64,000 bases of DNA, taken from contig OY987244.1 in NCBI GenBank assembly GCA_963920765.1, positions 13,704,501-13,768,500 of the forward strand, given 5' to 3'. Positions 4,990-63,902 of this stretch are shown here, in pieces (the first letter of the stretch is position 1; each line of letters begins with the position of its first letter). The position numbers were made by a program, and so were the translations under genes. Below the pieces are notes generated by a model that saw nothing but the letters and a program-made list of their open reading frames with translations, was not told where the DNA came from and made no database searches. This stretch comes from Ulota crispa (Eukaryota > Streptophyta > Bryopsida > Orthotrichales > Orthotrichaceae).

Positions 4990-5930
4990 TTAACCCCTAA
5001 AGGACCAAGCCCATTTTTCTGAGAAAATCGTTGAAAACTGTCACTTTTGGGAGAATGAGTACAAAGGTAGGAAAACAAGTTTTTTTGAAGATTCATCCAT
5101 AGGATCTTGCCCTAGACTATGGGAGGTACTTTTGGAAAAAAATTCGGCTCATTCTACATGTAGAGGAGTGAGATATTGACATACAAAGTGCAAAAGAAAG
5201 TTTTTTTCCTTGTTGTCCAAAAATTTCAAAAGCCTTTGATTGCTCCAATATCAAAAAAGTTGCTCTACGCAAAGTTGAGGTTTATTTTTCCCATGTTGAA
5301 GACCAAGTTAGGTATGTGTGGGAGAATTTTCAAATGAATTGGAGGTGTGAATCATACTTTGTAAAATATTGCAATGTTGTAAGGCCATGAAATTTGCATA
5401 TATACTAGGCAAGATTGGAGGTTTTATGTAAAATTGAGAAATATGAGTTACTTTGATCCAAATGGTGAAAACCAAGGAATCTTAGTCTACTACAACTTGG
5501 AAAAAAAAAAAGTCAAAAAAAAAACTAAAGCACCAAATTTTACAAGGGGCAAAAGGAGTGAAGATTTGGGAATTCCATACCTGCCCGCAAACTAAAACTT
5601 CTCACTTGTCAATCAAAATTGAATGATTCAAAGCTTTCCACATATATAAAAATTTAAAGAATCAATTTTAGATTTTTATTTTTTTTAAATGCAAATTTTA
5701 AAGAAGTTTTTTGGGCTGCCCAGATTGGCTGCCCTCCCCCATTTTCAGAAATTTATGCATAACTTCTTCAATAAATGTCATAATGAAGAAAAAATTAGAT
5801 ATGCACGTACATCTTTGAATTCCCCACCAACCTCAAAAGTTTCAAACATTTATAAAAACTGGTTTAGCCATAGGTACATGCCTGAGGTCCATTTATCCCT
5901 CAAGGGGATAGTTGGTCCTTTAGGGGTTAA
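4990..5930 (+). mobile_element. Family A piggyBac-like element (941 bp)
   Basis: TTAA at 4990-4993 is followed by CCCCTAAAGGACCAAGCCC. The far end is GTCCTTTAGGGG followed by TTAA at 5927-5930. TTAA duplication with C-rich termini is characteristic of the piggyBac superfamily. The interior has no long ORF, so it is non-autonomous. The copies at 19206 and 32845 align along the whole length. Confidence 0.85.
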
Positions 5931-6228
5931 CAAAGAGTATATTCAAGCAAAAATTTGAGATTAACCACAAATCGTTTAGATTTCTTTGTGAGAAGGTTGG
6001 TCTTTCTTTGAAAACTAAGATATTAGAATGTGTCATGGATATAAACCAAGTAGCCATAGCTATAGTCCAAGAGGCCTTAAAAAATTCTATAAAAGATTTT
6101 AGAAGGCTGTAAAATAGTATAAAAATTTATGAAAGGTTTCTAAAAAGCCTTTTGGTTGGTATAAAGTGCTCAAATACCTTCTAAATTTGAAATCCTTTTT
6201 AAGCACTTTCCAATTTGGACAATGAAGC
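5931..6228. other. Spacer between two inverted family A copies
   Basis: About 300 bp without visible features. It would form the loop if the two flanking elements paired. Confidence 0.5.
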
Positions 6229-7168
6229 TTAACCCCTAAAGGATTGTTGTCCCTTTGGGGGACAAGTGGGAGTTTGGGCATGTACCTTTGGATAAGCTAT
6301 TTTTTGTGATTTTTTGAAACTTTTATTGAAAGTGAAAAATTCAAAGATCTACGCAGGCATCTAATTTTTTCCTCATTCCGACAATTATTGAAGAAGTTAC
6401 GCAAGAATTTCTAAAAAGTTGGGGAGAACTGCCCGCCCGGGTAGCTCAAAAACTTCTTTAAAAATTATTATTTTTTAAACTAAAATTTGAAATTGGTTCT
6501 TTAGATTTTTTTATGGGTGACAAGTTTTGAATTGTTCAATTTCAATCAATGAGATCAAAGTTATGAGGAGTTTTTGTTTGCGGGCAGTCATGGATTCTCT
6601 ACTCTAAAATAAACTTTGAATTCCTTTATTTTACTCAATTTTCATTATTTTGGGAAAAAATTAAACCAAAGGAAGTAGATTGTTTATCACAACATTTTTG
6701 CCATTAGAATTTGCAATTTTCATTTTAATAATTAAATTCTTAACAATTTAGTGATTTCACTCATTCTCTACTTCTTTTTACTTACTGATTTTCCCCCATG
6801 TGTTGTGTAGTTCCAATTGATTTGAAAATTCTCCCACACATAGCTAACTTGATCTCCTACATGGGAAAAATAAAGCATAAAATTGCGTAGGGCAATTATT
6901 TTCATATAAGAATGGTCAAAGGCTACTGAAATTTTGGGGCAACATGAAAAAAAACTTTTCTTTTCACTTTAGATGTAAATATCTCACTCATGTCCATACG
7001 GAATGACCTGATTTTTTTTCCACAAGTACTTAATCTAGTCTAGGGCAAGATCCTATGATTGGAATTCCCAAATTTTCAAAAAAAACTACCTTCTTACTAA
7101 TCCCTCCAAAAGTGGCAGTTTTGAGTGATTTTCACTAAAAAAAAATGGGTCAATCCTTTAGGGGTTAA
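6229..7168 (-). mobile_element. Family A piggyBac-like element, inverted copy (940 bp)
   Basis: TTAA at 6229-6232, then CCCCTAAAGGATTGTTGTCCC. It ends CAATCCTTTAGGGG plus TTAA at 7165-7168. It is colinear with 4990-5930 in the opposite orientation, so the pair forms a long inverted repeat. No transposase ORF. Confidence 0.85.
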
Positions 7169-7420
7169 AATCCTCAAATATTTATAGGAGTTGAGACCAA
7201 AAGGTTTCTCAATCTTAACAATTCACTTTGACATTCTAGTTTATAGTACTTAGCCTTTAGTTTTTCACCAAAACCTTGTTCTTTATACTTCCACTTCTTT
7301 GAATACATCTTATGTTTGAGCTAAGTTACAACCTCGTGTTTTTGCCAAGTTTTTTTAAAACACTCATGTTCTTGCTTTGAATCATTTGTGACAAAATGAA
7401 AGTTTGTAAAGTATATTTTT

Positions 7421-7563: not shown

Positions 7564-10542
7564 TTTGCATTTAAAAATTTGGTGTGAATAAATTTAGGGA
7601 TGCAAGTTATCTTTGAAATGTAATGCAGTATGAAGGTAATTATCTAAGTATTTAGATAAAAAGCTGTAGACATTTATATAATTCTTGATTGAATAGTTTA
7701 TTAAAGAAATCCATGGTTTGCGGAATATATATGGCAATTGCTTTGTTCATTTGTTTTTAACAAACGGTGTAATCTTACTCATTTTGTGATCTTTTTTGTG
7801 TTTTCAAAACTTATTAGTGCACATTTGCATACAATTGGGTCAATTGAGATTAACTATTTTTATAAGCATTAATGTGTCTAATTTGCAAACAACAAGGCTG
7901 ATGTTTTAATTGAATATACTAATTTACAATTATAGAAGTTATAGCCAGTTTGAGACTGTGGCTAGAGCATTAATTGCTAAGTTTATGTAAGCACCTTGCA
8001 AATAACAAGTCTTCATTGTTAATTTAAGTACAAGTAAAAGGCAACAACTATTGTTTGTATGTGCTTGAAGAGTAAGTGCTTAAAATTGTTGTTAGAGAGT
8101 TTATTGCAAGATTTGTTTTGAAAAATTGCATATGAAAATTGAATGAGTGAAGTTAAATTTAATGAAGCGGATTAGTGTTGATCTTTATAAATGGAATCAA
8201 AATACATGTAAGCAATTTAATGTGATGAAGCAAAATGCTGTTAAAAAAATATAGTGTGTGAATAATATTTGAGTGGTTATGGATTATAACCAATGCGTAT
8301 GAAAATACATGAAAGTCAATAACCTCATAAAAAGTCATATGATTTGAATATACAAGTTTATGATGTATATGAGTTAATGCATTTGTAAGTATAGTAAGAT
8401 GACTATAGCTATGATCAAAGAGGAATCTCCATGTAAAAGCGATGATTATATATTATTAAATTACAAGAGGATTATAGTCAAATGCGAGAAGTTAGAGATT
8501 ATGAACTTTGTTGTTTAAATGAATAGGCAGCAATACTACAAAAAATGAATTAATACATGTAACAAGCACAAATGAATGTTATATTAGAGATGAATTAGTG
8601 AGGTGAAATTTCCATAATATAAAATGTAAATTTATTTGGATTTTGAATCGATAAGTGAGATTCTTAATTTAGTGACAGACAGATTTAAAAATGGCTATGA
8701 TAAATGGAAAAGAAATGTCAATTTAATATAATTTATAGCCTTTCTGAGTAGGCCATAAATATGTTGAATTATAATGAGGTGTGGAATGTGGATTGAAAAC
8801 AAATCAAATTGGTTGATTATGAATATAAAGAAGAAAGTATTATAAATTGAATGCAATTGTAAACATGATTGCAAATTTACAACCAAACCATTGCATTGTT
8901 GTATAAATACAACATTAAGAAATAACAATTAGTGACAAAAGATAATTGCCATGGAATATTACTAAATTATTGTTATTTACATATTATGGGCAGAAGAGTA
9001 TTGCCAAAAGTTATTGTCGATGAGTGATGCACATTGAGTGATCCTTATCGCATTGGCATTTTATTTATTTTTGATAAAAATACAATATTTGCATGGGCTT
9101 GAATACATGATCATACATACGGATTTAATTATGGACTTCATCCAAAAGAGGTATTCATGCACAAATATTTTAATTTGATGAACTTTTATCTTTTGTTTCT
9201 GTTTTTTTTAAACTTAAATATTATTTGTTTGGCATTTAATCTTATTTCATGTATTTATTCAATTTAAACTTTACTTGAACAAATTTGATCTTAGCTAAAA
9301 TTTGTTTTTTACAAACTATTCATATTTTATCTTATTGCAAGATTGCAATTTCTGTTGAAACTAGAGTTACCGACTTTATGTATAAATTGGATATTGGAAA
9401 GAGGTTGTTGTTTGTAATAAAAATGTAAGAGACATGGGTTGTTGTTTGTAGAAGAATTATTTTAAATTGCTAAAAATATGGCTTCATTTTTTTTTTGCAA
9501 AGCAATTACAAATATTTGTATAAAAATATGTTACAAACATTCAATAAATTAATATTTAGGATTTTAGACGCTAAATTTAAAGTTTTACATAAACTATGAT
9601 ATATACTATACAAGAAAATTACATTACCTACTAGTGAGTTAATTATTGATTTTCTCAAAAAATGGATGCTCAATGACATCTTCATGGTAAGAATCATGAT
9701 TGTACTTTGCAGTGATTGAAGTTACAAAAGACTGATTGTTGTGCATATAGGCACGGCACGGTGTATACCAAAATTGAGTTGATGTTGCACAATATTTTGT
9801 TGAACTATTCATGGCCAATTGGTGAAAACATGTTTAGTCTGTTCGAGATGATCCAGAAAATGTTATACCATAGGTGGTACTAAAACACTTTGTACAAGCG
9901 CCAATTCTAAACAACATTACAATCGGTGGCATGTATTCCAAAGATAACTCATCTATGATCTTCATCAAATTAATTGGAGATTTCTTAGTTTGGTTTACAT
10001 ACACTATATATTACTCCATACATAACATTATATTATATTAAATTATGTTGTATTATCAAGTTTATATACTTATGCCTCATTTATGTTTGTTACTTTATTG
10101 TATAAAATACATGAGCAATGAATAAATGGAGTACTCATATTTCAACTCTTATAATTCGAGGAAAAATTTATCATTGCGACAAATCATTTCATTCAACAAT
10201 TTTGTAAGGAAATTGCAAATTTTAAAATTGAGATTGAATAAATTAATCACCTTTACAATTAATATATTTTTAGATTAGAATAGTGGAAAGAAAATTTCTT
10301 TTATATTTTTTTGCCATATAATATAATGAGCAATGCAATGTATTTAATAAGACCATAAATGTATTGTTCATTGGAAGAGCAAAATGATGGATTGTCCTAA
10401 TTTCATGGTAATTTAAGTTGTATTCACTCTTCCACACAAATATGTGTTGCAAAAGCATTTGGCATATCAAAAGAAAAATAGAAATTTATAATGAAGCAAA
10501 TTGATATTTCATTAGGAAATTTTTTATCATATTTTTATATGT
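7564..10542. other. AT-rich region, nothing recognised
   Basis: About 3 kb of very AT-rich sequence with only short spurious frames. I found no conserved protein motif, RNA or clear TIR pair. Confidence 0.45.
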
Positions 10543-12608: not shown

Positions 12609-13417
12609 TTCCTCACTAAAAGTTTGTTGAATTACAAACTATTATTATTTTCATTTTATTTATTTTAGTAGAAATTTAAATTTAGGTTCAAATTTAGTTT
12701 CTTGTACATTGAGAGTAGATGCAAAATGTTCAACAAAATTATAAATGTTCTATTTATGATTTTTAACAAAACTAATTTCATGTTAAACCTAAAGAATTGA
12801 AGTTATTTAATTAAATTTTGCAATTGTTGTTGGTAACATTTCTTATGTTCATTTGGTTTAAATTTTCAAATTTTTTTTGTAGCATACACAATTTAAAAAC
12901 TTTTCATGACATGCATATTTCAATGTAGTTGTTTTAAGTACCAATTAAATTCATGTTATATCTAAAAATAAGTATTCAATGTGTAGATTATTGATAAAAG
13001 AAAAGTAAAAAATGCATATTATAATTGCTTTGTAGCTTAGAAGAATAAGGTCTTTTCACTTTTGAATCATAATTTAAGTTTCAAAGTATTTCTTTCTATT
13101 TCAAAAATTGAATTCAACATTTTTTGTTTCTACAGCTCCTAATTCTTTGTGACAAATTTTTGCTTCCAAAGTCTTCAAAATGCAAAGATGGTATCATTAA
13201 ATAAAATACATTTCAATAGGAAATAGCACTTTGACCAACCTTGTTAAACAATTTTAACTATTGAGGTTTGGAAGAATTCAAATGAAACTTTGTAAACACA
13301 ATAAAATATTATAAAAAATGTAGTGCTATTATATCACCAACTTGCTTGATATAATAATGCTTCAATGTGGTCATTTACAAAGCTGCACTTCTAATGATGT
13401 TGCATAAAAACTTGTAC
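12609..13417. other. AT-rich spacer, nothing recognised
   Basis: No gene, RNA or clear repeat seen between the Tc1 relic and the fold-back element. Confidence 0.45.
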
Positions 13418-14284
13418 TATGGCCTCCAAGCAAGTTTCATTCACCCTATTTTACCCTTCAAAAAAATTGGTATTTTATAAAATAAAATTAGCATTTTAGA
13501 ATTTTGTACCATTATTTTAATTCTTATTCAATCCCAATCAACCAAACCAAATTTTGAGTTTCAAAAACCCAAAATCATATTTTTGGTGAATTGTTTTACA
13601 TAATATTCACGGTTTTACATGATAAATGATTAAAAAAAATTGGTAACAAATTTTTGAGATTTGATTGCATGGATGCATAGGAAACATCCACACACACATC
13701 TTTTTTTCTAACAAGCATCTCCAAGAAAAAAAATTCCTTCTAAATAGATTTTAACGTTGAAGTGATCATTATCATATTTTGTAAAATAGAGATTTATGTA
13801 TTTTTAACTAGTTTCTGCCAAAATAACCATATCATTATGCCCAAAGATTCAAACCCAACTATATTGTATAAGGTCAAACAAAAAAATCTGATTACCAAGA
13901 AAAAATATCTAATTTATAAGATTTGATTGTAATCACTTCATCAATAAAATCTACATAGAAGGAGTTATAATTTTTTTTGGAAATGCTTGTTAGAAGAAAA
14001 GATGTGTGTGTGGATGTTTCCTATGCATCCATGCAATGAAATCTCAAAAATTCATTACCAATTTTTTTTAATCATTTATCATGTAAAACCATAAATATTA
14101 TGTAAAACAATTCACCAAAAATATGATTTTGATTTTTTGAAACTCAAAATTTGGTATGCTTGGTTGGAATTGAGTAAGAATTAAAAAATAGTGGTACAAG
14201 ATTTTAATATGCAAATTTTACTTTATAAATTACCAAATTTTTTGGAAGGTAAAATAGGGTGAACAAAACTAGCTTGGAGGCCAC
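13418..14284. mobile_element. Large fold-back element, family H
   Basis: A left arm of about 320 bp (13418-13737) is inverted at 13967-14284. Marker strings are GGATGCATAGGAAACATCC on the left and GGATGTTTCCTATGCATCC on the right. Weaker pairing continues inward to about 13765 and 13935. There is no ORF. A related half-copy lies at 53930-54205. Superfamily unknown. Confidence 0.8.
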
Positions 14285-14374
14285 ATTACATACAATATTA
14301 CAAGTGTGTTTTTTTTGAAATTTTTTGTCATTTTTCTAAGAAGTACATGAAAGATTGCTTGATTTTTCTTAACA

Positions 14375-19205: not shown

Positions 19206-20157
19206 TTAACCCCTAAAGGTCCAAGCCCGTTTTTTTGTGAAAATCACTCAAAACTGCCACTTTTGGGGGATTGAGGAGAAATATTATTATTATTATTTTT
19301 TGGAAATCCAACCAAAAAATCTTGCTTTAGATTATGGGAGGTACTTACGGGAAAAACATCAACTCATTCTAGTAGTAAAGGAGTGAGATATTCACATGCA
19401 TTTGAAGTGAAAACAAATACTTTTTTCCCTACTGCCCAAAAATTTCAAAAGCCTTTAACGGCTTTTATATTAAAAAATTGCTCTATGCAAAGTTGAGGTT
19501 TATTTTTCCCATGTAGAAGACCAAGTTAGGTAAATGTGCAAGAATTTTCAAATGAAACAGAGGTGTGGATCATACTTTGTAAAATCCTGCAATGCCGTAA
19601 GGTCATGAATTTTGCATATACACTAGGCAAAATTGGAGGATTTATGTAAAATTGTGAAATGTGAATTACTTTGATCCAAATGCTGAAAACCAAGGAATCT
19701 TAATCTACTACAACTTGTAGAAGAAAAAAAGTCAAAAACAAATACACAAAGAGCTCAAAAAAGTAAAGCAATAAATTTTACAAGGGGGAAAAGGAATGGA
19801 GGTTTGGGAGTCCCATACCTACCCGCAAACTAAACATTCTCATAACTTCCATCTCATTTATCAAAATTGAATGATTCAAAGCTTCCCAAATACATAAAAT
19901 TTTAAAAACTAATTTCAAAATTTTATTTAAAAAAGTTGCATTTTTTTTTGCTACCTGATTCTCCCTTGTTTTTCAGTTATTCATGCATAACTTCTTCAAT
20001 AAATGTCAAAATGAAAAAAAAATTAGATTTCCACGCAGATTTTATAATTCCCCATTTTCAATAAAAATTTCAGAAAATGATGCAAAATAGTTTGGCCATA
20101 GGTACCTGCCCAAAATCCCATTTGTCCCCTAGGGGACAATGGGCCTTTAGGGGTTAA
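19206..20157 (+). mobile_element. Family A piggyBac-like element (952 bp)
   Basis: TTAA at 19206-19209 then CCCCTAAAGGTCCAAGCCC. It ends GGGCCTTTAGGGG plus TTAA at 20154-20157. Both TSD copies and both TIRs are intact, and it aligns throughout with 4990-5930. No coding capacity. Confidence 0.87.
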
Positions 20158-22614: not shown

Positions 22615-23724
22615 TTAACCCCTATAGGCTTCTGACTAAGTTTTCACTAATACCGCTCCAAAATTGTCATTTCTAATACCAATACCAAATTATATAAAAA
22701 AAAATCATCTTTGGACACATTTAATCATAAAATCTTGTAGTACTATAGTATCAAAAGGTGTGAAAAAAAATTCATAAATTTTCACCATGTAGATTGTTAG
22801 ATATTTGAGTTTGAATTAATATAAAGCCATTTTTTGTCCTTGCAAAATCCGGGCAGTTGCACTTCACAAGGCCATATTTGTATTAAAAAATTTCCAAAAT
22901 GGTTGTAATTATTGAAATTTATTCTCCAAGGCAAGCTGGGTACACACTTGAGAATCTTCAAATCATTGAGAATTGTACAACACATGGCAAATAGTAAGGA
23001 AGTAAAAAGAAGTAGCTAGAGAATGACTCAAAACACTAAATTGTAAAGAATTTAATTATTAAAATGAAAAATGCCAGTCCCAATGGCTAAAATATTGTAA
23101 TAAAAGATCTACATACTTTGGCTTTATTTTTTTCCAAAATATTGAAAATTGAGTAAAAAAAGGACTTCAAAGTTTATTTGAGAGTAGGTCTACAAGGAAA
23201 ACAGTCCAAAATGACAAAAATATGTCCAAATCAACATGGCCAAATCTACATGGCCAAATCTATAGACATTGTCCAATTTGACAAAAAAATTTGATGTTTT
23301 GGACACATTTAGTCAATTTGGACATATCAATTAAGACACAATTTCTTGTAGTGTGCTAGAGAATCCATAATATCCACAAACAAAATCTCCTCATAACTTT
23401 CATCTCATTGATCAAAATGGAGTGATTCAAAGCTTTCCACGTATAAATAAGTCTAAAGAACCATTTTTTATTTCTTTGAATGTAATTTTTAAAAACAGTG
23501 TTTTGAGCTCCTTGGGCTATCTAGCAAACAAAGAAAACTACATATCATGCAATAACTTTTTAACCATGTAGTCAAAAGCTATGAAGTTTTTTGGACCTTA
23601 AAGCTACTCCTTGAACACATCATGTGTGAAAATTTCAAAGAAATAAAATGAGAAGTTCATTTTTAGTGAGTTGCCCAAAATCTCTATGTTGCTAGAAAAC
23701 GTTGTTAGCGCCTTTAGGGTTTAA
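22615..23724 (+). mobile_element. Family B piggyBac-like element (1110 bp)
   Basis: TTAA at 22615-22618 then CCCCTATAGGCTTCTGAC. It ends GCGCCTTTAGGG plus TTTAA, with TTAA at 23721-23724. It is colinear with the copies at 60993-61942 and (inverted) 56791-58357. Its extra length is explained by the 170-bp insertion at 23187. There is no transposase ORF. Confidence 0.82.
23187..23356. mobile_element. CACTA-like mini-element nested in family B
   Basis: The left end GTCTACAAGGAAAAC and the right end TTTCTTGTAGTG are imperfect inverted repeats. CACTACAAGAAA is the usual end of plant CACTA elements. Other family B copies read straight through this point (near 57797 and 61560). The flanks are TAG and TAG, a 3-bp duplication expected for CACTA, although the left CACTA motif is decayed. 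A TA duplication is an alternative reading. Confidence 0.6.
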
Positions 23725-26135: not shown

Positions 26136-26902
26136 CCCCTAAGCACCCAGTGACTAGATTTTGGTCGCTCCAGATTTCAAAGGCATGTTTGTGGCATTGG
26201 ATATGAGTTTTTGGTCTTGCTATAAACTACAATTTTGAAGGCATTCAAGTTGTCTTTGTCAATGGAGTAATGGCAAGGAAAGCCAAATTGTTGTACAAGC
26301 ATTGCCAGAGATTTGATTTGGTGAAACACCATATGGGGCAACGGGGGCGTGGTGGCAAGGAGTGTTTTAAAGGCTGCAACTGGTCGATATCCCTTGCAAG
26401 GTTCCTTGTGTAAGTTTTATGGTGGCGGGAAAGTTGTTGGCAAGGGCTCAAGCATGTTTTAGACCCTTATTATGGCAATTGTCACCGATTGTGTTGGTCA
26501 TTGTTTTCCATACATTAACAACTTGAAGCCCTAAAACTTGACATAAAAAGAAATGCAATCTTCAATATTTTACAAATGTGTGCATTCACATCTAATCTTG
26601 CTGCTCACAAAATTTGCAATGAATCCGGGGCTTATAGAATTTTGTAAAAATCATCAAATAGCTACTACCTACCAAAAAATGAGATTTTGTCATCACAAGT
26701 TGTTTGATCAAATGTTATAATCTCCCATCTCCCTCGATGGATTGTTCCCAAAATTTACAAGCCATTTTCTAAGTAGATGTTCCACTATTTTCAATGGTCA
26801 CTTTTTGTGAATCATCCAATTGACCGAGATACGATGAATCAAAGTTGTCGGTCTCCAAAAACCCTGATTTTGGTGAATACGACCTGGGCGCTCAGGGGTT
26901 AA
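26132..26902 (+). mobile_element. Family E piggyBac-like element (771 bp)
   Basis: TCAA at 26132-26135 then CCCCTAAGCACCCAGTGAC. It ends GGGCGCTCAGGGG plus TTAA at 26899-26902. It abuts family G with no spacer, so the shared tetranucleotide was reused as a target. Related copies are at 3109-3822 and 59352-59636. A 68-codon minus frame resembles one in the 3.1-kb copy, but no domain is evident. Confidence 0.8.
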
Positions 26903-27339: not shown

Positions 27340-27418
27340 TTAACCCCTAAATGCGTACGGCACCAAATTTTGGTGGATTTTACATTAGAAATCGGAACCT
27401 CAGGCATTGAGGGGTTAA
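27340..27418. mobile_element. 79-bp micro-element with piggyBac-like ends
   Basis: TTAA at 27340-27343, CCCCTAAATGCGTACGGCACC, then the palindrome CCAAATTTTGG. It ends GGCATTGAGGGG and TTAA at 27415-27418. It is an internal-deletion relative of the 641-bp element at 54396-55036, which shares CGGCACCAAATTTTGGTG. It is the shortest element in the window that retains both ends. Confidence 0.85.
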
Positions 27419-28153: not shown

Positions 28154-28404
28154 TTAACCCCTAAGTGCCCAAGGGGCCAAAATATGGCCTCTCGGTTTTG
28201 AAAAATTTCCTTGTGTGACCGTTATAATCTTTTCAATGGTATGGCAAAAGGACGTGTCCTTTTCCCTATAGCTCCTCCGGGCCTATGTTCCTTATCAATA
28301 GATACGGTCAATTTTTGTGAATCTCTTTTAGATGATAGTTTGATTGGAATGAGTTCCAAAAGGTTTGAATTTTAGTGAACTTGTGCTGGGCGCTCAGGTG
28401 TTAA
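28154..28404. mobile_element. piggyBac-like short element (251 bp)
   Basis: TTAA at 28154-28157 then CCCCTAAGTGCCCAAGG. It ends GGGCGCTCAGGTG plus TTAA at 28401-28404. The ends are family E-like, with a shortened and diverged interior. Confidence 0.8.
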
Positions 28405-29097: not shown

Positions 29098-29100
29098 TTA

Positions 29101-39258: not shown

Positions 39259-39260
39259 TA

Positions 39261-39894: not shown

Positions 39895-39910
39895 TAATAG
39901 ACTGGAATAC

Positions 39911-45000: not shown

Positions 45001-47179
45001 TTTGCAAGATGCGCACCCATCTGCAAAGTCCTAGTTTTTAGGGCTTTGTGCGCTCTGAGTCGTGCCAATATAACGAAAATGCCAGGGTGTGGAGTAGACC
45101 TCTACGCAACACGGCACTGATTCAGACGTGTGTCCTACACTTGTCCAGCGATCGGTGTATTTTATTTCAACACTATTGCGTTGACTTCTAAATACTGATT
45201 TTAAAAAGCCCATTCATGCGGACTTACGAGGACTGGTGGAGCTGTTTTCCTTTAATAACCATCTCCTGCCAAATTGACAGTGAGACAACTCAATGATTCA
45301 CCTATTTGTGCAGAATCATGCATAGGTGGAGGCGAAGACGGAGCATTAGCCAACCTAAGAATTTCTGAATTGAGACCCCAAAATCAATAACTGCAAACAC
45401 AGCACTTTCCAGATGCAACTTTAGTCATGAAAGTGCATAACGGACGACCTCAAACGAGCTCTTATTCGTTGAAATGAAGGATTCAGTGAGACTGGCGCCC
45501 AACTTAAACCTTCGATATAGAGCAGTCCTAGTTCTTCCGAGCTCTGAACACTTGAACGACACAATTTTGAGTTTTTGACGCTCTGAAACAGGCCGTTTAA
45601 CGAGTACAAATATCAAACTTTTTAATTATTCAGTATGAATCCTACGCGAAAAATGCTCCACAGTCTCTATTTGCACCATTCATAGTGGCTATCGATCTGA
45701 CAGTTATGTATTCAGATAATCTCACAGAACTGAAGCACAGCAACAGCATTTAACCTGGACGAGCTCTGGCAACGTTGCCACTTTCTAGATACATTTAAGG
45801 CTCGTTCTGGCGGGTACCTCCAAAGACAGACTCTAAGCGGATCTGTCTCGAGATCAGGATATGTACAATTCGATCTCTTGCAAACCTTCGTAGCCACAAA
45901 TAAATCTAGATTTTTGGTCGTTCTCTGATCGATTCATAACTAAGAGAAGAAGCACAGGAGAACTTTAGCTGTACAGACTAGTCACTACTTCTATGTCCAG
46001 AAAACCTTCTCGGTTTCGAGGAAAATTAATAGTTCTGATAGGGGAAATGGGAGCTTGAATATTCCCTCGGCGTTTCAGATGTCTTACTCGAAGCTACTGA
46101 ATTCAAAAATGCCGTTTTTTTTTCTCAGAGCGACCTGGATTGACGTTAACGAATATCTTGACAGTGAGACTGTTAAACTTCAAAATAAACTACAGCAGCT
46201 CCCAGTCCCATCCTGAAGAAGAGCACTCAAAAGGAAAACACACGAACTCTAAACCTGATATTAATGGCTTCGACAACTAAAGAGGAACCGAGATTAAGGA
46301 ATGGAGTTCCTTGGTGTTTCCTAAGATTGGTATATAAAATGTAAACTAGAAACTGATAAACTCTGGTTCCTAATCTCGAGGAGGGCCATTGCAACTGCAC
46401 TTGTCATAGGGAGCCAGGGCGTCAAGGACAAGTAGCTAGTAGGCATCGCAAGGCTCGAAGTAGGCATGTACGCCACCAAAAAGCAGGAATTTTGGTAGGG
46501 AGGCAGGTACACTCCTGAACCACCGAACTATGAACAACTTGAACTGGTCTAGTAACATTTTTGCAAGCCAGGTCTCTAACGCCTGAGTAAGCGGACACAA
46601 TCTCAACAACCGATTTCAGCATGTCTAGGTCGGATTCCGAAAAAATTGGCAACATGTCTCGTATCATGCTGAAGTAACTGGAGCGTTGAAGGGTTGGAAT
46701 GAGAACCAATTCCAAGTTAATCGTTGAAGCAAGTTTTCATAACTTGCCGAGTGACTGAAACTGGGAATCGATCGTAACCAGCCTGTGACAAGCCATTCTG
46801 ACGTCCTAATGGCAGTAGTTAATCGAGACCAGTTGGAAAGAGCTAGAAAAGTTGGAGGGAGAGATGGGATGACTGTTGAGAGCGGGTTGTGATGAAGACG
46901 AACCTGTTGCTGGAGAGCAAAGATGGTGGCGACGCAACCGTAGACCGGATCGGACAAGCGGGCCTGGGCTTCGTAACTGATGGTGAGGACGGCATCACAG
47001 CGACGGGGCACGGGAATGTGCAGCAAGAGCTTGGCCACATTGCTGGCGCCGAAGATTTTATGCACGGCGGCGAACCGGGCGGCGCCTTGCTCGGCTCCAA
47101 AGTAGGGGGCGAAGATGCAGCCCCTCACACACTTGCGTCGCAGAAATTTGCAGGCCCCGCATGGGGCTCCACTGCTCAT
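42094..47179 (-). CDS. LBD: LOB-domain (LBD/AS2-like) transcription factor, two exons
   Basis: Plant-specific nuclear DNA-binding regulator. CDS is join(47179-46904, 42600-42094) on the minus strand: 260 residues plus TAA. Residues 7-21 form CX2CX6CX3C ([15 protein letters not shown]). [11 protein letters not shown] at 36-46 is the GAS block, and DPVYG is at 77-81. Leu 89, 96, 100 and 107 make the LX6LX3LX6L coiled coil used for dimerisation. The C-terminal half is His/Gln-rich (about 112-140), has a poly-Gln run (158-164), Gly/Ser patches, and ends [22 protein letters not shown] and IFALQQQV resemble Arabidopsis LBD16/18/29/30, known for roles in lateral root and vascular development; function here is inference. 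The intron has a GT donor (CAG|GTTCGT) and AG acceptor (TGCAG|GTGG), phase 0, at the position usual for the family. The start is the only in-frame ATG, though its context (T at -3) is weak. Confidence 0.93.
42726..43030. mobile_element. Hairpin MITE in the LBD intron
   Basis: The left arm starts GGGAAAATTTCATGGATACC and the right arm ends GGTATCCATGAAATTAATTC. The arms match over about 120 bp, and a 40-bp block containing AAATTAGGCGTTTGTTTTG is duplicated on the left side. A single end of the same family lies at 50397-50450. It begins only 126 bp from the exon 2 splice site. Confidence 0.8.
44603..44720. mobile_element. Short MITE in the LBD intron (TATGTTCACACTT ends)
   Basis: The left end GTATGTTCACACTTAG is inverted at the right as AAGTGTGAACATAC. 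Length is about 118 bp. A second copy at 49684-50046 carries a nested insertion. Target duplication not clear. Confidence 0.8.
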
Positions 47180-47794
47180 GGAGGTGGTCGCGTATGCTCC
47201 CCCGGGAGGCTGATCCCTTCCCTGCTGCTGCTGTTGCGAAGACGACGATGAGCCTTCCCCCCACGAGGATCGCGGCCGCGCTGAGTTTCTTGCAGCGGAT
47301 TCCAACGCACTCAAACCTCGCTCCTGCGACGACGACGACGGATTCTCGTCTGATGCTGATTCTTGTCTTGCCTCCTGTTGTTGTTGCTGTTGCTGCTGCT
47401 GTGGTGGCTTCCCGATCCAGTTATTCTCCACCTGATCACTGTCACGCAACCAAGTACTGCCGGCTTGATGTTGATCTCGCTCCTGCTGCTGTTGTTGCTG
47501 CAACTGCAATTCTATCCGTCCTGGTGCATGAGGTGACCCCCAGGCCTCGGCCACCTCGCGCTGATCCCTGCTGGAGCCCCCCCACGTGTCCAATTCTATA
47601 TTAACCCCAGCCCCTGGTGTTGTTGTGTCCCCTCCTCCTACGTCCCTACCTGTGGTGTGTGGATTCTCCGGCCGACTACGACTCCTGTCAACATGCTCGA
47701 TGTTCAAGCTCCACGCTCTCCCTACCCCCTCCTCCCCTGGACCCGCCAGCGTGACCCCCGGCGCTTCGCTTTCGACCCTGTAATTCCCCACCGA
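47180..47794 (-). promoter_or_regulatory. 5' leader or undetected N-terminal extension of LBD
   Basis: The frame of exon 1 stays open for 205 codons upstream of the ATG, back to a TAG at 47797-47795, without any ATG. Read through, it would encode Gln runs (up to nine in a row), Ser runs and Gly/Asp-rich sequence. Possible readings are a CAG/CAA-rich 5' UTR, or coding sequence attached to an unseen upstream exon. TTACAG near 47780 could act as an acceptor. Most LBD proteins begin close to the Cys motif, which favours the UTR reading. Confidence 0.55.
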
Positions 47795-47797: not shown

Positions 47798-49683
47798 CAC
47801 CACTTGCGCGCTGGGGGGGTCAACCTTCAATTTCAATGGCCTCCGCACAAAGCGGCGCAGAAAACCATCCTCGGAAGAGAGCAATATCGATGCCTGCTAG
47901 GGTGGGCTGGGAAGGCAGAGAGACGTATCTGGGCCATTGGCCGCTACTATCCAGTTTGCTTGCTGATCGGCAGTGATCATGAGGACGTCGAGCACTCTGG
48001 ATTACAACTCGAATGACAGGCTAGCCAGCCAAGCCAATGCAATTATTGGTATCGCAAGTTCCTCTCAGCCGACCCACCTGCGAAAGCTGCCCACGAGCTT
48101 ATCGTCAGCAACTAACTAGCTCATCACCAAACCCAAGGTCCAGTCTTTGGCTCCACAACACTGAATCGGTCTGTTAGTTGGCTGTTACTGGAAACCCTGA
48201 CTCACACACTACAACATGCGACCCCCGGTAGAAATTGGTGGCGTATAAAAATCGCTGGTCCCTAAGCACACTTGTCAATTGTAGAGCACGCTAAGCACAT
48301 CATGCGCGCCCTTGTCACTGGTAGGACTTCTCCCCGTGATCATGTGATGTCTGGAGGGCCTTGGAAACGCTAGTATGCAAATAGTTCTCGAGAGTTCGAA
48401 GTACCTCGTACTACAGGTTATATTATATTGCCTGGCAACCTGTCCATATTAGCTACTAACACTGACTGCTCTTTAGGGTGCTCCCACGCCCCTCATTGCC
48501 GAAGCTCGCTAAGCATAAGAGATGATGATTTCACACTACTTTTGTACTCGTAGCACTAGAAAAAAAGAAAAAGGAAAAACCCCAGTGCTAAATTCACACA
48601 CATGCGTACATAAATGTACATAAATATAGATTTAGAAAGGGGGACGGTATTTCAAAGCAGGTTTTTTTCTTGCACATAGAATGATTAAACGTGGTGTTCA
48701 TAACGTATGGGATTGTTGCCAAAGTGTCGGAGCTCATGACGGCACTCACGTCGACGAGCTAGCTAGCTTTCCATGAAACTATATTCTACCAGGGACAATT
48801 GGATACAAAAATCTCAACCGACTCACTCTCGAGCAACTATCCTCCATGTTCCCGAACTCGTCATCGTCATCACTCTCTCGTTACACTCACCCCACGGCCC
48901 TTCGAACTAACCCGATCCACAACGCCCGCATTTATCGATGAATTAGCAACTTCGAACTACGGAGCAGCAAACACGGACTCCGGAGAACGTGACACCGCCA
49001 AAAGGGGCACCACAGAGCAAATAACCGCTTCGGGTTGACTAGCGAGCTACAAGGTGAGCGTACTTTGTGATGAAGGTGCTGGAGCAAGACGCGGCCAGGC
49101 GACGACGACGATGATAATCCTCATAGTCATTTCCACAAAGCACCCTCTTGCAGCGGCAGTACTCTGGAGAGCATGAGATCGACCCGAATTGCTAGTCGTG
49201 AAGGTGTTGACAGGCATCACGAGCATCACGAGCAAGCCAAGCAAAGCCACAGACAAAGCGGAGCGTGCTGGCGAAGGGAGGGAGGGGAGTGCGGAGGTGA
49301 GGAGAGAGGAGTGCTGGAAGAAGCGGCGGTGGACCCCGCGGGCTTTGTGGGAGCTGTCTCTCTGGCCTTCGCTTCGCTTCCCCCCGCCCTGCCTGCCTGC
49401 TTGCGCTGGCTCGCCGCGCTCGCCGCGAGTTGGTCGTGACGACCCGGCGCACTGGATTACTGGAGGACACGACCGACGGCGATGACAACGGCAGGCGGCG
49501 CAGTCGGAGCGAGGCTACTACCGCCGTTCGTCGCGGGCGACGGGGGAGGTTATTGTACGAATACGGAATCGTATCGCGTAGTCGACTGACGTCAGCCTTT
49601 CCTTTCTCCCTGCGGGTAGGTTTGAGGTTGGGTTGGTTGTCTCTAACGCCCCCAAATCTACAATTTCTACTACTGCCTAATGG
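47798..49683 (-). promoter_or_regulatory. GC-rich upstream region of LBD
   Basis: Low-copy, GC-rich and rich in CpG, most strongly at 49070-49560. On the minus strand 49270-49330 reads as a C/T-rich patch, of the kind seen near plant transcription starts. Overlapping open frames on both strands there reflect base composition and lack recognisable domains. I infer promoter or leader sequence. No start site can be fixed. Confidence 0.4.
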
Positions 49684-50046
49684 TATGTTCACACTTGGTG
49701 AAGTTTTAGGAGGGGTATTAGCAATATAAATGCAATCTAAAGGTGTGTCTAAATGTATCTAATTTTTCTTTGCTATTACTCCTTTTAATCCCTAAACGGC
49801 TCGAAAGCCCTTCGCGGCCGTATGTACGGTCATAGGTACAAACGTACTTGAGCTACTCTGAGGATTTTTCAAATTATTTTATGCACCCACCATCATACAA
49901 TCTTTCAATATGTATGATTGTAACACTTCAATTCCAGTTAATTCAAACTTCTACATAGTGGTTGCGACCATATTTGGTACCGTATCTCTCGAGTCCAAGG
50001 GGCAAGGGCCCTTCAGGGGTTAAGATCAATTGTGAACACACTTTAA
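49684..50046. mobile_element. TATGTTCACACTT-end MITE interrupted by a piggyBac-like element
   Basis: The left part GTATGTTCACACTTGGTG up to TTGCTATTACTCC matches the intron copy at 44603-44720. The right end AATTGTGAACACACTT resumes after the insertion at 49795-50023. Confidence 0.75.
49795..50023. mobile_element. piggyBac-like short element (229 bp), nested
   Basis: TTAA at 49795-49798 then TCCCTAAACGGCTCG. It ends GGGCCCTTCAGGGG plus TTAA at 50020-50023. It lies inside the MITE above. The interior, with CGGCCGTATGTACGGTC, has no other copy in the window. Confidence 0.8.
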
Positions 50047-52411: not shown

Positions 52412-53301
52412 TTAACCCCTAAAGGCCCAGGCCTAGTTCTTTTGAAAAAGCATAGAAAATAATTGTCATTTTCAGTGTTTTGATCCTAAGAAGATTTTTT
52501 TCAAATATTTACCAGTCTAATTGTAGGATCTTACATAGGACTTAAGCAAGGAGCCATAATAAAATTTTCATAAGGTTTGATTGTACCGATTGAGAGGTAT
52601 GAGCACTTGAAGTTGGTGTAAGAAGTTTTTTTTACCTTCGTCCAAAATTTTCAGGTCTCTTTGACCACATGTGGTGGACATTTTGTGCAACAAGGATATT
52701 GTAGAGAGTTGACTAAAATGCTCCAAATCATGTCAAGCATATCCCCACCATTTCAAGGTCATTGAAGACATGGAACACACCCTATATGGCCTTGCATTGC
52801 AAGCATGTGATTGAAATTTCCATAACACTAGGGTTTTTTGCAAACTAAATTTTTGATCGACAATTTGAAAATACAAAAATCCAAATGGTGAATTGAAAGA
52901 GTTTAATTTTATTGACAACCACAAAAAAACTTTGAAAAAAAAGCAAATCTCCAGTAGCTATTGGAATTCAAAAGTTAGTGTATTTATCAAATAAAAAAAA
53001 GAATTTATTTAGTACACTATTATTTTTGGTATATTCTAGTGAGGGGTCATGCCTTCATTGGTGGCCCTTGAGAGAAGTCAACAAAATTTGACATGCTTAG
53101 CTTGCTCCTTGAACAAAAATAACACATAAAATACCCATATCTTTTGAAATGTGAATTCATTTTAATAAAAACTATACTCCCACATAGTCCTTGCAATACT
53201 CTATTTCAGAAATAAATTTTAAATAATTTGATAAAATTTCCAATCAAAAAAGCCTGCCCAAAATTCATTTTTTCCCAAGACAATGGGCTTTTAGGAGTTA
53301 A
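52412..53301 (+). mobile_element. Family C piggyBac-like element (890 bp)
   Basis: TTAA at 52412-52415 then CCCCTAAAGGCCCAGGCC. It ends GGGCTTTTAGGAG plus TTAA at 53298-53301. The second copy starts at 63042. It shares the internal GTAGGATCTT block with family A. No coding capacity. Confidence 0.83.
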
Positions 53302-53393
53302 TGTAAATAGCCTTGGAGCTCTTAATTGAGGATCAACCAATGAAAAGCTAGGACTAGAATGTGCAAGGGCCTCAAAATGGCCATGACTTCTAA

Positions 53394-53622
53394 GGGCTTT
53401 AAAATGGAGTTGGTTCTAAAGTGGTGCACTTTTAGGAATGGTTGACATGTTCTCCTCAAATATCTATTGCTGTCATTGATGAGCGAGTTGATGAGTTAGC
53501 TGGGCTTAGCGATATAGCTAAGCCCAGCTAACTCATCAATGACAATAATAGATATTTGAAAGGAACATGTCAACCATTCCTAGAAGTGCACCGCTTTAGA
53601 ACCTGCTCCATTTTAAAGCCCT
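53394..53622. mobile_element. Family N hairpin MITE (229 bp)
   Basis: AGGGCTTTAAAATGGAG at the left is mirrored by CTCCATTTTAAAGCCCT at the right. The central arms are nearly perfect (GAGTTAGCTGGGCTTAGC and its complement) with a tiny loop at about 53513. The flanks share TACCTTCCTGC-like sequence with 50221-50373. Confidence 0.82.
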
Positions 53623-54395: not shown

Positions 54396-55036
54396 TTAAC
54401 CCTTGAATGCCTGCGGCACCAAATTTTGGTGTCTGCAATACTCTGAAGTTCAATAAACCTAGCTAACTTGCTATTTTTAGCAGTTTACATTTTGGATTTA
54501 TTCTTTGTGAAGTATAGTTTGAGGATCAACAATCTGATTTTAAAAATGATTAATTATGAGTTTTCTATTCAAGCTTTTGTGCAAGGGTCTTGACTTTCTC
54601 TAGTGTTGAGAGCTCTTGGAAATGAGCCTCAAATACACTAGATCTTGGAGAAAAATTTATACTAAAAATTCATTTGAAATTTTTTTAGAAGAGATTTTGA
54701 AAAGCTATAAAGTGATTGGAGTTATGTATGTTATTTCCTTTAACCTTGTATTTTTTGGTGACCATTTGTTTAGATCCAACTTGTGAAAAGAGGATTCAAA
54801 GGCTCCAAGTCATTTTTGTAGTTTTGACACCCTCATGATCAAACATCATAATCTTTCAATCCATAAGTTATATTATTTTATTTTATTTTCTTATGTGACC
54901 TCTAACATATCTTGTTTAAATTTGTATGGTTACATTTTAGAAGAACTTGATACAACTTATTGAAATATTGCATTTTTGTTAATTTTGATGTAGATTCGTA
55001 GAAGCTCCAAAAAGGCCTCGGGCATTTAGGGGTTAA
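54396..55036. mobile_element. piggyBac-like element (641 bp)
   Basis: TTAA at 54396-54399 then CCCTTGAATGCCTGCGGC. It ends CTCGGGCATTTAGGGG plus TTAA at 55033-55036. Long parent of the 79-bp derivative at 27340. No ORF of note. Confidence 0.82.
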
Positions 55037-56538: not shown

Positions 56539-56790
56539 TTAACCCCTAAAATTCTTTTGTATTTACATGCTTAAATGGCTCAAAATTGACCTCTCTCAAT
56601 AAAATGATTAGAGGATTAAATTTGGAAACTCCTTCAATAGTTTAACAGTAAGCTCTATTTTTTCACTTATTTACACACACCTTGTTAAAATTTCAAACTT
56701 TACAAGGGTTACACTTTATTAGATTATGATACTAAAAATAGGGTCAAATTTTTTGAAGCTTGTCTAAGGTGTCAAAAAAATTTGGTCACC

Positions 56791-58357
56791 TCAACCCCTA
56801 GTCTTGACACCCTTTTTTTGGCAATATATCTATTTTAGGCAGCTCACTACCTATAGATTTTTCTTTTTTTTTTCTTTGAAATTTTCACACATGGTGTGTT
56901 CAAGGAGTAGCTTTAAGGCCCAACAACTTCCATACCTTTTGACTTCATGGTTCAAAAGCTATTGCATGATATTTAGTTTTCTTTTGCTTGTCAAAGTAAA
57001 CAAAAAATTCTTTAAAAATTGTGTTTTGAATTTTCTTTCTTTTTTAACCCCTCAAGGACCATTGTCCCTTTTGGGGACAAATGGGATTATGGGCATGTAC
57101 CTATGGCTAAACTACTTTGTGTGATTTTTTGAAATTTTTATTGAAGGTGAGGAATTCAAAGATCTAGGTGAGAATATAATTTTTTCTTCATTCCAACATT
57201 TATTGAAGAAGTTAAAAATGAATTTCTAGAAAATGATGCTTCCCAGGTAGCCCAAAACTTCTTTAAAACTTATATTTTTTTCAAATAAAAATATGAAATA
57301 GGTTCTTTAGACTTATATAGACGTGGGGAGCTTCTTGAAATGAAACCTTCCCGCAAACTAAAACTTCTCATAACTTTCATCTCATCCATCAAAATTGAAT
57401 GATTCAAAGCTCCCCACGTCTATATAAGTCTAAAGAACCTATTTTGTATTTTTATTTGAAAAAAATGAAAATTTTAAAGAAGTCTTTGGCTGCCCAAAGA
57501 GCATCATTTTCCAGAAATTCATTTTTAACTTCTTCAATAAATGTTGGAATGAAGAAAAAATTACATTCCCATGTAGATCTTTGAATTCTCACCTCCAATT
57601 AAAGTTTCGAAAAATCACACAAAGTAGTTTAGCCATAAGTACATGCCCAATATCCCATTTGTTCCCCAAAGGGACAATGGTCCTTTAGGGGTTAAATTGG
57701 TTCTTTAGATTTATATATACATGGGAAGCTTTGAAACATTCCATTTTGATCAAACAAATCAAAATTACAAGGAGTTTTTGTTTGCACGCAGTTTTGGATT
57801 CTCTACTCTAAAATAAACTTTGAAGTCCTTTGTTTTACTTAATTCTCAGGATTTTGGAAAAAAAAAAAAAAAAAACCTAAAGATGCAAATTGTTCATTTC
57901 AACATTACAATGATTGGAATTTTTCATTTCCACAATTAAGTTCTTGACAAATTAGTGTTTTGAATCATTCTCTACTTCTTTTTACTTACTATTTTTTTCC
58001 TTGTGAGTTGCAAATGATTTGAAAATTTTCCAAGTGTGTACTTGACTTGCTTTGAAGAACAAATCCAAAAAATTGCAACCATTTTGGAGATTTTTTCATA
58101 AAAATATGACCTTGTAAATACAGTTGCCCTTGTAGGGACAAAAAATGACTTTTGTCAATTCAAACTTATATATCTTACAATCTACAAAGTGAAAATTTCT
58201 GATTTTTTTCTCACATCTTTCAATACTAGTGTACTACAAGATCTCACAACTACATATGCCCAAAAACAATTTTTTTCTCAAATTTGGTACTTGTACTAGA
58301 AATGACAGTTTTGGAGCACTTTTGGTGAAAAACTTAGCTTAGGACTTTAGGGGTTAT
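56791..58357 (-). mobile_element. Family B piggyBac-like element inside F
   Basis: TCAA at 56791-56794 then CCCCTAGTCTTGAC. The far end is GGACTTTAGGGG plus TTAT at 58354-58357. It is the inverse of 22615-23724. Both flanks are one mutation from TTAA. It is itself split by the fold-back element below. Confidence 0.8.
57044..57695. mobile_element. Fold-back derivative of family A inside B (652 bp)
   Basis: TTAA at 57044-57047 then CCCCTCAAGGACCATTGTCC. It ends GGACAATGGTCCTTTAGGGG plus TTAA at 57692-57695. Both halves are the same end-half of family A facing outward: arms 57044-57331 and 57409-57695, roughly 90% identical, with a 77-bp loop. No ORF spans it. Confidence 0.88.
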
Positions 58358-60992: not shown

Positions 60993-61942
60993 TGAACCCC
61001 TAAAAGTTTTTGACTGAGTTTTCACCAAAATTGCTCCAAATTTGTTATTTCTAGTATTAGAATCAAATTTTAGGAAAAAATCAATTTTGGGCACATGTAG
61101 TCATGAGATCTTGTAGTACACTAGTATTGAAAGATGTGGGAAAAAAATCAGAAATTTTCACTTTGTAGATTATTAGATATATAAGTTTGAATTGACAAAG
61201 AGCCATTTTTGTCCTTGCAAAAATACGTGCAGATGCACTTCACAAGGTCATATTTATATGAAAAAGTTCCAAAATGGTTGTAAATTTTTGGATTCATTCT
61301 TCAAGGTAAGTTGGGGTACACACTTAAAAACTTTCAAATCTTTTGGAATTGTACAACACAAGGAAAAAAAATAGTAAGTAAAATAAAAGTAGAGATCAAA
61401 TGATTCAAAACACTAATTTGTTAAGAACTTAATTGTGGAAATGAAAAATTCCAATCCCAATGGTTGTAATGTTGTAATAAACAATCCATATCCTTTGGCT
61501 TTGTTTAGTTTCCAAAATACATATTGAAAAGCTAGTAAAATAAAGGACTTAGAAATCTGTTTTAGACTAGTGTATCCATGCCTACCCGCAAACAAAATCT
61601 CCTTATAACTTTCATCTCATTGATCAAGATGGAATGATTCAAACCTCCAAGTCTATATAAGTCTAAAGAACCAGTGTCATTCTTTGTATAGTAAAAAAAA
61701 ACTTTAAAAAAACTTTTTTGAGATGCTTGGGCTACCCAACAAACAAAGAAAACTACATTTCATGCAATAACTTTTGAACCACACAGTCAAAATTTATGAA
61801 AGTTATTGGACCTTATAACTACTCCTTAGACACATCATGTGTGAAAATTTCAAAGAAAAAAATTTGAAAAAACCATTTGTAGTGAGCTACCCAAAATTGC
61901 TATGTAACCAAAAAAAACATTGTTTGAGCCTTTAGGGGTTTA
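60993..61942 (+). mobile_element. Family B piggyBac-like element (about 950 bp)
   Basis: TGAA (decayed TTAA) then CCCCTAAAAGTTTTTGACTG. It ends GAGCCTTTAGGGG plus TTTA at 61939-61942. Colinear with 22615-23724 but without the CACTA-like insertion, so it serves as an empty site for that event. Confidence 0.8.
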
Positions 61943-62132
61943 TTCATTAGTGTGAAAATTCTCACGGAGTTTTAGAAATGTGTATTTGTTATAGATTTTG
62001 TATTTAAAGTAACAATAAATTGGCATTTAAACATCCAATTAATAAAAAAAAAAACCTTTGGGTACAAATGGTAGTGGACAATAACGGTAAAAATTCTGAC
62101 ACAATACTTGGTTTTTCATAACCCAAAGGTCC

Positions 62133-63045
62133 TTAACCTTTTAAAGACCACAAAACCATATTTTGGTTTGAGAGAGCAATTTTTGGCCTATAGAGGAAAA
62201 CTGCTCAATACTGTTTGGAAATTGGTCTTGTAAAATTCTTATGATCACAAGAGTTTTACATCTACTTGAAAAACCAACAATGGAATTGGGAATGTGAGCT
62301 GACATATAGTGGTGTTTATACAGCATGGCCTCAAAATATGTTTTCATTTTTTGTCAAAGATGGATTAAAGCAAGAACATAATACATCAAATATCAAAGAA
62401 GAATGTCACATTTCAATTGTGCAATCCTAGAAAAATTCAAATTGCTAAGAAACATGCTTGTATTGCTTCCCTATATGGTAGAATATAATTGTAGTATTGG
62501 AAAACCTATTGAATTGGTGTTGTCATTTCATTTTAAAATTTGTGCTCCTACATTTAAGGCCAATTTTTAATAGTATTCATTGAGCAAATTTTTCATGGCA
62601 TTTATCAAATTTCTTGTAGAACCATTTTAGGGTAGCAAATAAAGTGGGATTTTTGACCCGTTTTGTCCACTTAGCTACACCTTGCTACACCTTGTGATTG
62701 CTGTTTTTATCCATTTTGTGTGAAACTAGTCTTATTGGAAAGGTGAAAAACCCTACTTTCTAGAAATACAAGGCTCTTTTCAAGCATAGCTTGCATGAAG
62801 TGTTAACATTCAAAACCACACAAGCTTGAAAAACTAGAGATTTTCCACCAACAGCTTACTCAAACATGATAAACTTCACCTCCAATGATAGATTTGCTTG
62901 ATATTTTGATACAACGTGTTCTTCCCATTTTTACAATTAGTTTATTTAAATTGGGTCCATACTTGATTCAATTACACATTTAAATTTACCGCATTGGTTT
63001 CTAATGGATTTTGTGAAAATGTGTGTGGTTTTATAAAAGGGTCAA
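62133..63045 (+). mobile_element. Family G piggyBac-like element, uninterrupted
   Basis: TTAA at 62133-62136 then CCTTTTAAAGACCAC. It ends GTGGTTTTATAAAAGGG plus TCAA at 63042-63045. It is the reverse of 24358-26135 and is continuous at the point where F sits in that copy (ATTTTAAAATTTGTGCTCC near 62530). Confidence 0.8.
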
Positions 63046-63902
63046 CCCCTAAATGCCCAAGCCCATTTTTTCTAAAAAGACAATGAAAATTGTCATTTTT
63101 TAGTCATTTGATCTCAAGAACAATATTTTTACTTTCTCAAAAAATTTAATTGTAGGATCTTGCATCAAACTTGTGCAAGGAGCCATAATAAAAGCTTCAT
63201 GAGGTTTGACTACATAAATTGAGAGATATGAGCATTTGAAGATAGTAAAAAAAGTTTTTTTACCTGCATCCCAAATTTTCATGTCCTTTCAATTGCATGT
63301 TGTGAACATTTTTTGCACTATGGATGCAAGAGAGATTTGTCCAACATGCTCTGAAACATGTTAAGCATCTTTCCACAAGTTTTTATGACCAACAAAAACT
63401 TGGAACATTCCCATCATGGGCTTGCATTGTAAACATGTGTTTGGGATTCACACTACACCAAGGTTCTTGCAAACCAAATTTTCAATCAGGTAGTTTTTGA
63501 AAAATAAAAATTCCAATAGTGAATTGGAAGATTTTATCTTTGTTGATAACTGCAAAAAAAGTTGAAAAAAATAATCAAATCTCTAATAGCTATGGCAATT
63601 CAAAGGCTAATGTATTTGTCAAATACAATAAATTATTTATCTAATACCCTATTGCTTTGGATATACTTCATTGAAAGGTCGTGCCTTCATTGGTTGTTAT
63701 TGGAAGAAGTTAATGATAAATGGCATGCTTGAAGTACCCTTAATTCAAAAGACACCCATAAAATACTCATAACTTTTGAACCATAAAATTGATTTCTATA
63801 AAAATTATATCCCCATACAACCCTAGCAATTTTCTATTTTAGAAATAAACTCCAAAATAATAGATCAAAAATCTCAACAAAACAAGCTTGCCCAAAGTAA
63901 CC
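63042..63902 (+). mobile_element. Family C piggyBac-like element, right end lost
   Basis: TCAA at 63042-63045 then CCCCTAAATGCCCAAGCCC. It follows family C (52412-53301) to about 63902, where a family D MITE begins. It shares its left flank with family G, with no spacer. Confidence 0.75.

Follow-up and report, generated by a model that had tools for sequence, protein, structure and literature searches.

Short TTAA-bounded elements in the genome of Ulota crispa as probable non-autonomous members of the piggyBac superfamily

The window considered here is a 64,000-nucleotide stretch of the Ulota crispa genome (contig OY987244.1, hereafter C3; C3:13704501-13768500), drawn from an assembly of 274.8 Mb in 157 contigs. 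Scattered through it are segments that begin with TTAA-CCC and end with GGG-TTAA, and these are very probably non-autonomous DNA transposons of the piggyBac superfamily, resident in the plant nuclear genome as deletion derivatives resembling miniature inverted-repeat transposable elements (MITEs). The assignment is made because TTAA is duplicated, the termini are CC..GG, empty sites and many copies are found, and the genome holds transposase genes, including one 5.0-kb lineage bounded by terminal inverted repeats (TIRs). An earlier sequence-only reading had arrived at the same superfamily, and the TTAA target, the transposase genes and the TTAA-CCC-bounded lineage support it. Under this interpretation, a piggyBac DDD transposase produced by elements elsewhere in the genome would bind the TTAA-CCC ends of the window elements, cut them out and insert them at TTAA sites, with duplication of the four target bases.

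Twenty-two left ends were identified in the window, 17 of them with a right partner at first listing. Two further right partners were assigned later (24863-25746 and 56539-58357) and three left ends without one (14375, 16684 and 63042) were dropped, leaving 19 segments. TTAA is intact at both ends in 16 of these, while the remaining three carry TCAA/TTAA, TTAA/TTAT and TGAA/TTTA, and TIR identity ranges from 6/14 to 14/14. The motif TTAAYCCYT..ARGGRTTAA marks 19 left and 12 right ends in the window, with 11 of the left ends partnered at 60-1300 bp; the means in 100 first-order Markov sequences are 1.98, 1.93 and 0.10, respectively (maxima 6, 5 and 1). Allowing up to three mismatches from the 14-mer gives 22 left and 24 right ends, where ten Markov sequences give 1-6. 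TTAA stands directly before the core CCCCTAAAGG in 10 of its 12 perfect occurrences, in 8 of 13 with one mismatch and in 11 of 39 with two. By self-BLAST, the window contains at least seven groups with common internal sequence (4990/19206/32845; 22615/60993/56539-58357; 26132/3105/59356; 27654/31872; 28864/36547; 52412/63042; and 24358-26131/62146-63030), and several alignment edges fall at TTAA. The segments are as follows, with the strand where one was assigned and the basis of each entry in brackets.

4990 to 5930, plus strand: non-autonomous TTAA element, family A, 941 bp, TIR 14/14 (end listing, self-BLAST)
6229 to 7168: TTAA element, 940 bp, a mosaic of family-A-like ends, TIR 14/14 (self-BLAST)
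19206 to 20157, plus strand: family A, 952 bp, TIR 13/14 (self-BLAST)
22615 to 23724, plus strand: family B, 1110 bp, one-base variant at the right end (self-BLAST)
24863 to 25746: TTAA element inside an older TTAA element (24358-26131), right TIR decayed (6/14) (self-BLAST)
26132 to 26902, plus strand: family C, 771 bp, left TTAA changed to TCAA (self-BLAST)
27340 to 27418: mini element, 79 bp (end pairs)
27654 to 28023, plus strand: family E, 370 bp, weak TIR (8/14) (self-BLAST)
28154 to 28404, plus strand: 251-bp element, its left end resembling that of the transposase element beyond the TIR (shuffle-scored comparison)
28864 to 29097, plus strand: family F, 234 bp, weak TIR (8/14) (self-BLAST)
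31872 to 32230, plus strand: family E, 359 bp (self-BLAST)
32845 to 33824, plus strand: family A, 980 bp (self-BLAST)
34022 to 36658: TTAA-bounded segment, 2637 bp, possibly composite (end pair)
49785 to 50023: 239-bp element bordering another repeat (49677-49783) (self-BLAST)
52412 to 53301, plus strand: family G, 890 bp (self-BLAST)
54396 to 55036, plus strand: 641-bp element with ends CCCTTGAATGCC (end pair)
56539 to 58357, minus strand: family B copy, interrupted by 57044-57695, right TTAA changed to TTAT (self-BLAST)
57044 to 57695: palindromic element, 652 bp, inside the family B copy, TIR 13/14 (self-BLAST)
60993 to 61942, plus strand: family B, 950 bp, TTAA decayed to TGAA/TTTA (self-BLAST)

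Nesting is thus seen twice, at 24863-25746 and 57044-57695, and the reverse-complement paralogue of the older element 24358-26131, at 62146-63030, is without the insertion. A tblastn search of the window with fragments of two transposases of the same genome gave nothing below E 1, an Rfam scan of the window gave nothing at gathering scores, and the one ORF (open reading frame) scanned inside 34022-36658 (35000-35389) matched no Pfam family. The sequence-only reading had described more than fifteen segments of 79 to 1110 bp in at least seven families, none encoding a transposase, and the measurements agree with it except for the lengths of 34022-36658 and 56539-58357.

The duplicated target is TTAA rather than another sequence, as judged by end counts and empty sites. 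Throughout the assembly, the exact end TTAACCCCTAAAGG occurs at 15,411 places (7719 + 7692), while VTAACCCCTAAAGG, which begins with VTAA, occurs at 654 (307 + 347); the outer T is therefore kept in 15,411 of 16,065 ends, or 95.9%. These counts bear on Tc1/mariner-like elements, which duplicate TA and could in principle prefer TTAA. Since TTAA includes TA, single empty sites alone cannot separate the two, but a TA duplication with free outer bases would leave the outer T at the level of base composition. TA duplication is excluded because the outer T is kept, and a Tc1/mariner origin, which was rejected, is exceedingly unlikely.

Empty sites were sought in all fetched sequence with queries in which the two flanks of a candidate end pair (81 pairs in all) were fused through one TTAA. 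The pairs came from the window and the fetched loci, overlapping loci included, and those too near a locus end were left out. Nine distinct filled sites (overlaps merged manually) had paralogues with alignments reaching well into the flank on each side, and at four of the nine, TTAA stands at the junction in at least one paralogue; at locus L026:1501-2435 it does so in all five rows listed (four places). The paralogues of the other five sites have TGAA, CTAA, CCAA, TTGAA, GGTA or a one- or two-base gap. No longer duplication is visible in the listed empty-site rows. A duplication of 8 bp or more was rejected, as no repeat was apparent by eye in the flanks outside TTAA and no strong base preference exists there, including the eight bases beyond the TTAA of CCCCTAAAGG cores. 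Abutting pairs of elements with one TTAA in common are found at 21 places.

Two features that define the piggyBac superfamily are accordingly observed, namely a TTAA target with a 4-bp TTAA duplication and 5'-CC..GG-3' termini with short TIRs. Kolobok elements must also be weighed, as they too duplicate TTAA and have been recorded in chlorophytes and rhodophytes. Kolobok termini are described as 5'-RR..YY-3' (PMC9587614), whereas the ends in the window and genome are CC..GG, and that series of ends also encloses a piggyBac transposase lineage. Kolobok was rejected on its terminal bases, and its probability is very low.

Turning to scale, the 15,411 exact ends compare with 1 + 0 for the reversed sequence of TTAACCCCTAAAGG, and family A (941 bp; query 4990-5930) has 8683 first-look candidates, 40 of which were scored; copies of the window elements, which the sequence-only reading proposed to seek across the assembly, are therefore abundant. 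Among the listed family A copies, the full-length ones mostly show 87-91% identity to the one in the window, and one shows 81%. For the first 30 exact-end loci, among which two pairs represent the two ends of one element, a right end with at most three mismatches lies within 1.5 kb in 26 and in none of the other four. The window holds ten exact ends, or about 156 per Mb where the genome has 56, and is thus above average; with up to two mismatches, it holds 34. Applied to the whole genome, this ratio of 3.4 would imply roughly 50,000 ends (25,000 elements), figures extrapolated from one window and not counted.

The piggyBac transposase domain PF13843 (DDE_Tnp_1_7) gave 120 matches on contigs C1 to C11 (best E 1.3e-73) when 116 of 528 first-look candidates were scored, all rows listed being above the curated cut-off. 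No match was found in 14 control genomes of unspecified make-up. Stop codons occur in 110 of the 120 rows, and the matched stretch is stop-free in ten (8 loci). The best match sits in a 5,027-bp element, C3:13130262-13135288, which shares the 34-Mb contig of the window, at a distance of 0.57 Mb, and was read in pieces around its middle (13132801-13133799). Its left end is TTAACCCCTCATCGCC from C3:13130262 and its right end is GAAGGGTTAA to C3:13135288, the complement of TTAACCCTTCATTGCC; the two agree at 14 of 16 bases, common TTAA counted. A nucleotide query of 702 bp spanning the right end recovered copies on C10 (95%) and C8 (93%), each adjoining a PF13843 match, whose homology breaks off at that end's TTAA (query positions 491 and 490, where TTAA ends at 490); six short matches fall outside the element. 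When the query was instead 1,000 bp spanning the left end, homology to the C10 and C8 copies set in exactly at TTAA (query 63), and three short matches of 36-52 bases began at 61-63. Because homology starts and stops at TTAA on both sides, the three transposase-bearing copies, which are one lineage, have both boundaries in common. Each carries a DDE_Tnp_1_7 transposase between TTAA-CC TIRs, and the search that the sequence-only reading had proposed, for a transposase of the right superfamily within TTAA-CCC TIRs, thereby succeeded for this one lineage.

A second transposase, at locus L051 (G000:C4:3590300-3594700), is an open 476-residue frame at 1428-2855 with a GC content of 46%. It matches PF13843 (E 8e-60), piggyBac (PDB 6x67, E 4.1e-20) and piggyBat (PDB 9c0f, E 5.8e-17), and may be a dead or domesticated copy. 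Aligned to piggyBac, it matches at what we take to be the first two catalytic aspartates and has GGVN further on, where the Trichoplusia ni protein presumably has GGVD. The C3 copy, outside its middle, has EVDLIDQ in place of GGVN. An apparent cysteine-rich stretch follows one stop codon in L052. PF13843 also matches in two stop-free pieces at C1:1180709-1181995 and C8:19570986-19572215 (frames of 563 and 472 residues), possibly intron-bearing or domesticated transposase genes. A 5,091-bp span between two exact ends, L032:279-5369, was taken for an autonomous element and rejected, since its ORFs contain no transposase by eye; tblastn found none in it below E 1. Its ends probably belong to different, nested elements.

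The window families can be compared with the C3 transposase element through their ends. With up to two mismatches, TTAACCCTTCATTGCC occurs at 1300 + 1277 places genome-wide (control 69 + 56). Among 100 such places listed, mostly the variant TTAACCCCTCATTGCC, five facing pairs lie 966-980 bp apart and two lie 79 bp apart, the size of the smallest window element, with facing pairs of a related end at that spacing located at C1:24635159 and C2:20950426. Beyond the TIR, similarity to the C3 left end exceeds the 99% shuffle level at 10 of 175 ends, and at three of them it exceeds all 8750 shuffles. The TIRs themselves make a graded series, CCCCTAAAGG, CCCCTAAATGCC, CCCCTCATTGCC and CCCTTCATTGCC, in which the C3 ends are included. 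Sola3 is another superfamily that uses TTAA, and some CCCCTAAAGG families could derive from it or a similar source and be merely piggyBac-like; that no transposase was read between CCCCTAAAGG ends would suit such an origin, but the graded series takes in the ends of the transposase element, and we consider it quite improbable.

Several observations weigh against the piggyBac assignment or its reach. Among 61 aligned empty-site rows, TTAA accounts for 14, AAAA for 19 and other sequences for 28, several with adjoining gaps. A fourth copy of the C3 lineage, on C11, stops on its right side (70%) at query 473, 17 bases before TTAA, and begins on its left side (75%) at query 65, two bases inside it. 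L051 has no recognizable TIRs within the 4.4 kb read. In the window, similarity to the C3 left end beyond the TIR passes the 99% level at just 2 of 37 ends; for the right end, it does so at none of 175 (window 0 of 37). In the sequence read, no boundary common to the dominant CCCCTAAAGG families and a transposase was seen, and their tie to any particular one is putative. The expectation of an autonomous source elsewhere in the genome holds in that DDE_Tnp_1_7 genes are present and one lineage is TIR-bounded. On balance, the piggyBac assignment is retained, with transposases of this genome's set having presumably moved the window families by what was probably a cut-and-paste route, and with amplification apparently largely stopped.

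As piggyBac is best known outside plants, the elements could also have entered the assembly as contamination from an animal or protist genome, a possibility with next to no probability given their surroundings. The window contains a plant marker gene outside the TTAA elements:

46664 to 47794, minus strand: frame with a LOB domain (PF03195, E 9.8e-33)

LOB domains are not known outside land plants and their algal kin. Genome-wide, 16 LOB loci (merged manually from 22 rows) lie on nine contigs, C3 included, and all nine also carry piggyBac matches, so that LOB and PF13843 co-occur on the same large contigs. Because of the LOB gene in the window and these shared contigs, the contig is plant and no contaminant, as the sequence-only reading had asked to be confirmed. 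Sixteen loci is a small number that would, by the family sizes we assume, hint at a non-flowering plant. The observed/expected CpG ratio is 0.273 inside 17 listed element spans and 0.515 outside, in keeping with methylated resident repeats. The LOB gene itself (42094-47794, minus strand) has a likely second exon near 42.6 kb, some 4 kb from the LOB exon, and an intron of this size is long for the family.

Other repeats accompany the TTAA elements. Fold-back repeats (74-89% self-inverted) without TTAA-CCC ends lie at 13413-14290, 29099-29321, 53393-53622, 42764-43005 and 861-1002 and are probably other MITE types; that at 29099-29321 adjoins a TTAA element. One repeat family begins near GTATGTTCACACTTGG (paralogues at 44597-44701 and 49677-49783, one copy edged by a TTAA element) and a dispersed one near CATATTAGGTAAATTGGGCAAAAG (38126-38375, 39909-40155 and 63904-64000). 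Elsewhere, L050 holds a Pogo-like DDE_1 transposase fragment (9085-9735, E 2.1e-21) and a Copia-type RVT_2 frame (3892-6288, E 1.9e-76). L043 has a 223-residue frame at inverted places within one 10-kb locus (1323-1991 and 6044-6712), identical over the first 90 residues; a Pfam scan of the first copy found no family.

The TIR sequence of these elements differs from that of T. ni piggyBac. In other respects they resemble piggyBac (T. ni, PDB 6x67) and piggyBat (PDB 9c0f) in TTAA target and duplication, CC..GG termini and a DDE_Tnp_1_7 transposase, which in the C3 copy seems to include a C-terminal cysteine-rich stretch. Unlike T. ni piggyBac, they reside in a plant, and the transposase element measures 5.0 kb against 2472 bp (PMC10803768). 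The TTAA MITEs of two coral genomes are likewise short, non-coding and dependent on an outside transposase (PMC2872659, with 'piggyBac' 57 and 'TTAA' 13 times in its text); by description, the present elements are set apart by their plant host, by a size range of 79 to about 1100 bp, by their many families and by an exact-end count above 15,000. Bacterial IS1380, a distant piggyBac relative, has a 4-bp duplication and CC..GG termini in common (PMC10045372) but is prokaryotic, and is likened by description alone.

Among plants, repeat tables record PiggyBac in Ceratopteris richardii (1230 copies, 122 kb; PMC6890710) and Stipa capillata (1 copy, 75 bp; PMC8319324), in rows that, as available, give no target-site duplication, TIR or transposase. 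PiggyBac is also named among seven angiosperm MITE superfamilies (PMC10004981) and among superfamilies in plants (PMC10794571), and the insect element is employed as a tool in plants (PMC10905368). In contrast, the available main text of a 207-genome plant MITE survey, which reports five superfamilies and one special group, contains 'TTAA' and 'piggy' 0 times (PMC12550479), and that of a moss genome paper has 'piggybac' solely as 'piggybacking' (PMC10619864). The open-access titles listed, which in three lists covered 20 of 234, 20 of 149 and 20 of 128 papers, include no study of land-plant-native piggyBac elements; earlier records may be held in Repbase and in subscription papers, which were mostly outside the scope. 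The statement that such elements are little described in land plants is thus upheld by the open-access literature and tempered by two table rows and two reviews. The kind of element is known, while its host group is little documented and its scale unusual.

A broader suggestion, offered tentatively and with some doubt, is that piggyBac ranks first among the DNA transposons of this plant, with a diverse resident set of transposase lineages (528 first-look candidates), several per cent of the genome made up of tens of thousands of short elements, and a few intact split transposase genes that may be domesticated. If a plant genome carries more than 15,000 exact piggyBac ends, annotation pipelines without this class may mislabel or miss them. 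Plants would gain a natural system in which to follow the entry of piggyBac into the green lineage, whether vertical or horizontal, and its silencing by plants, and in which to ask whether plants have domesticated a piggyBac transposase as animals and ciliates did.

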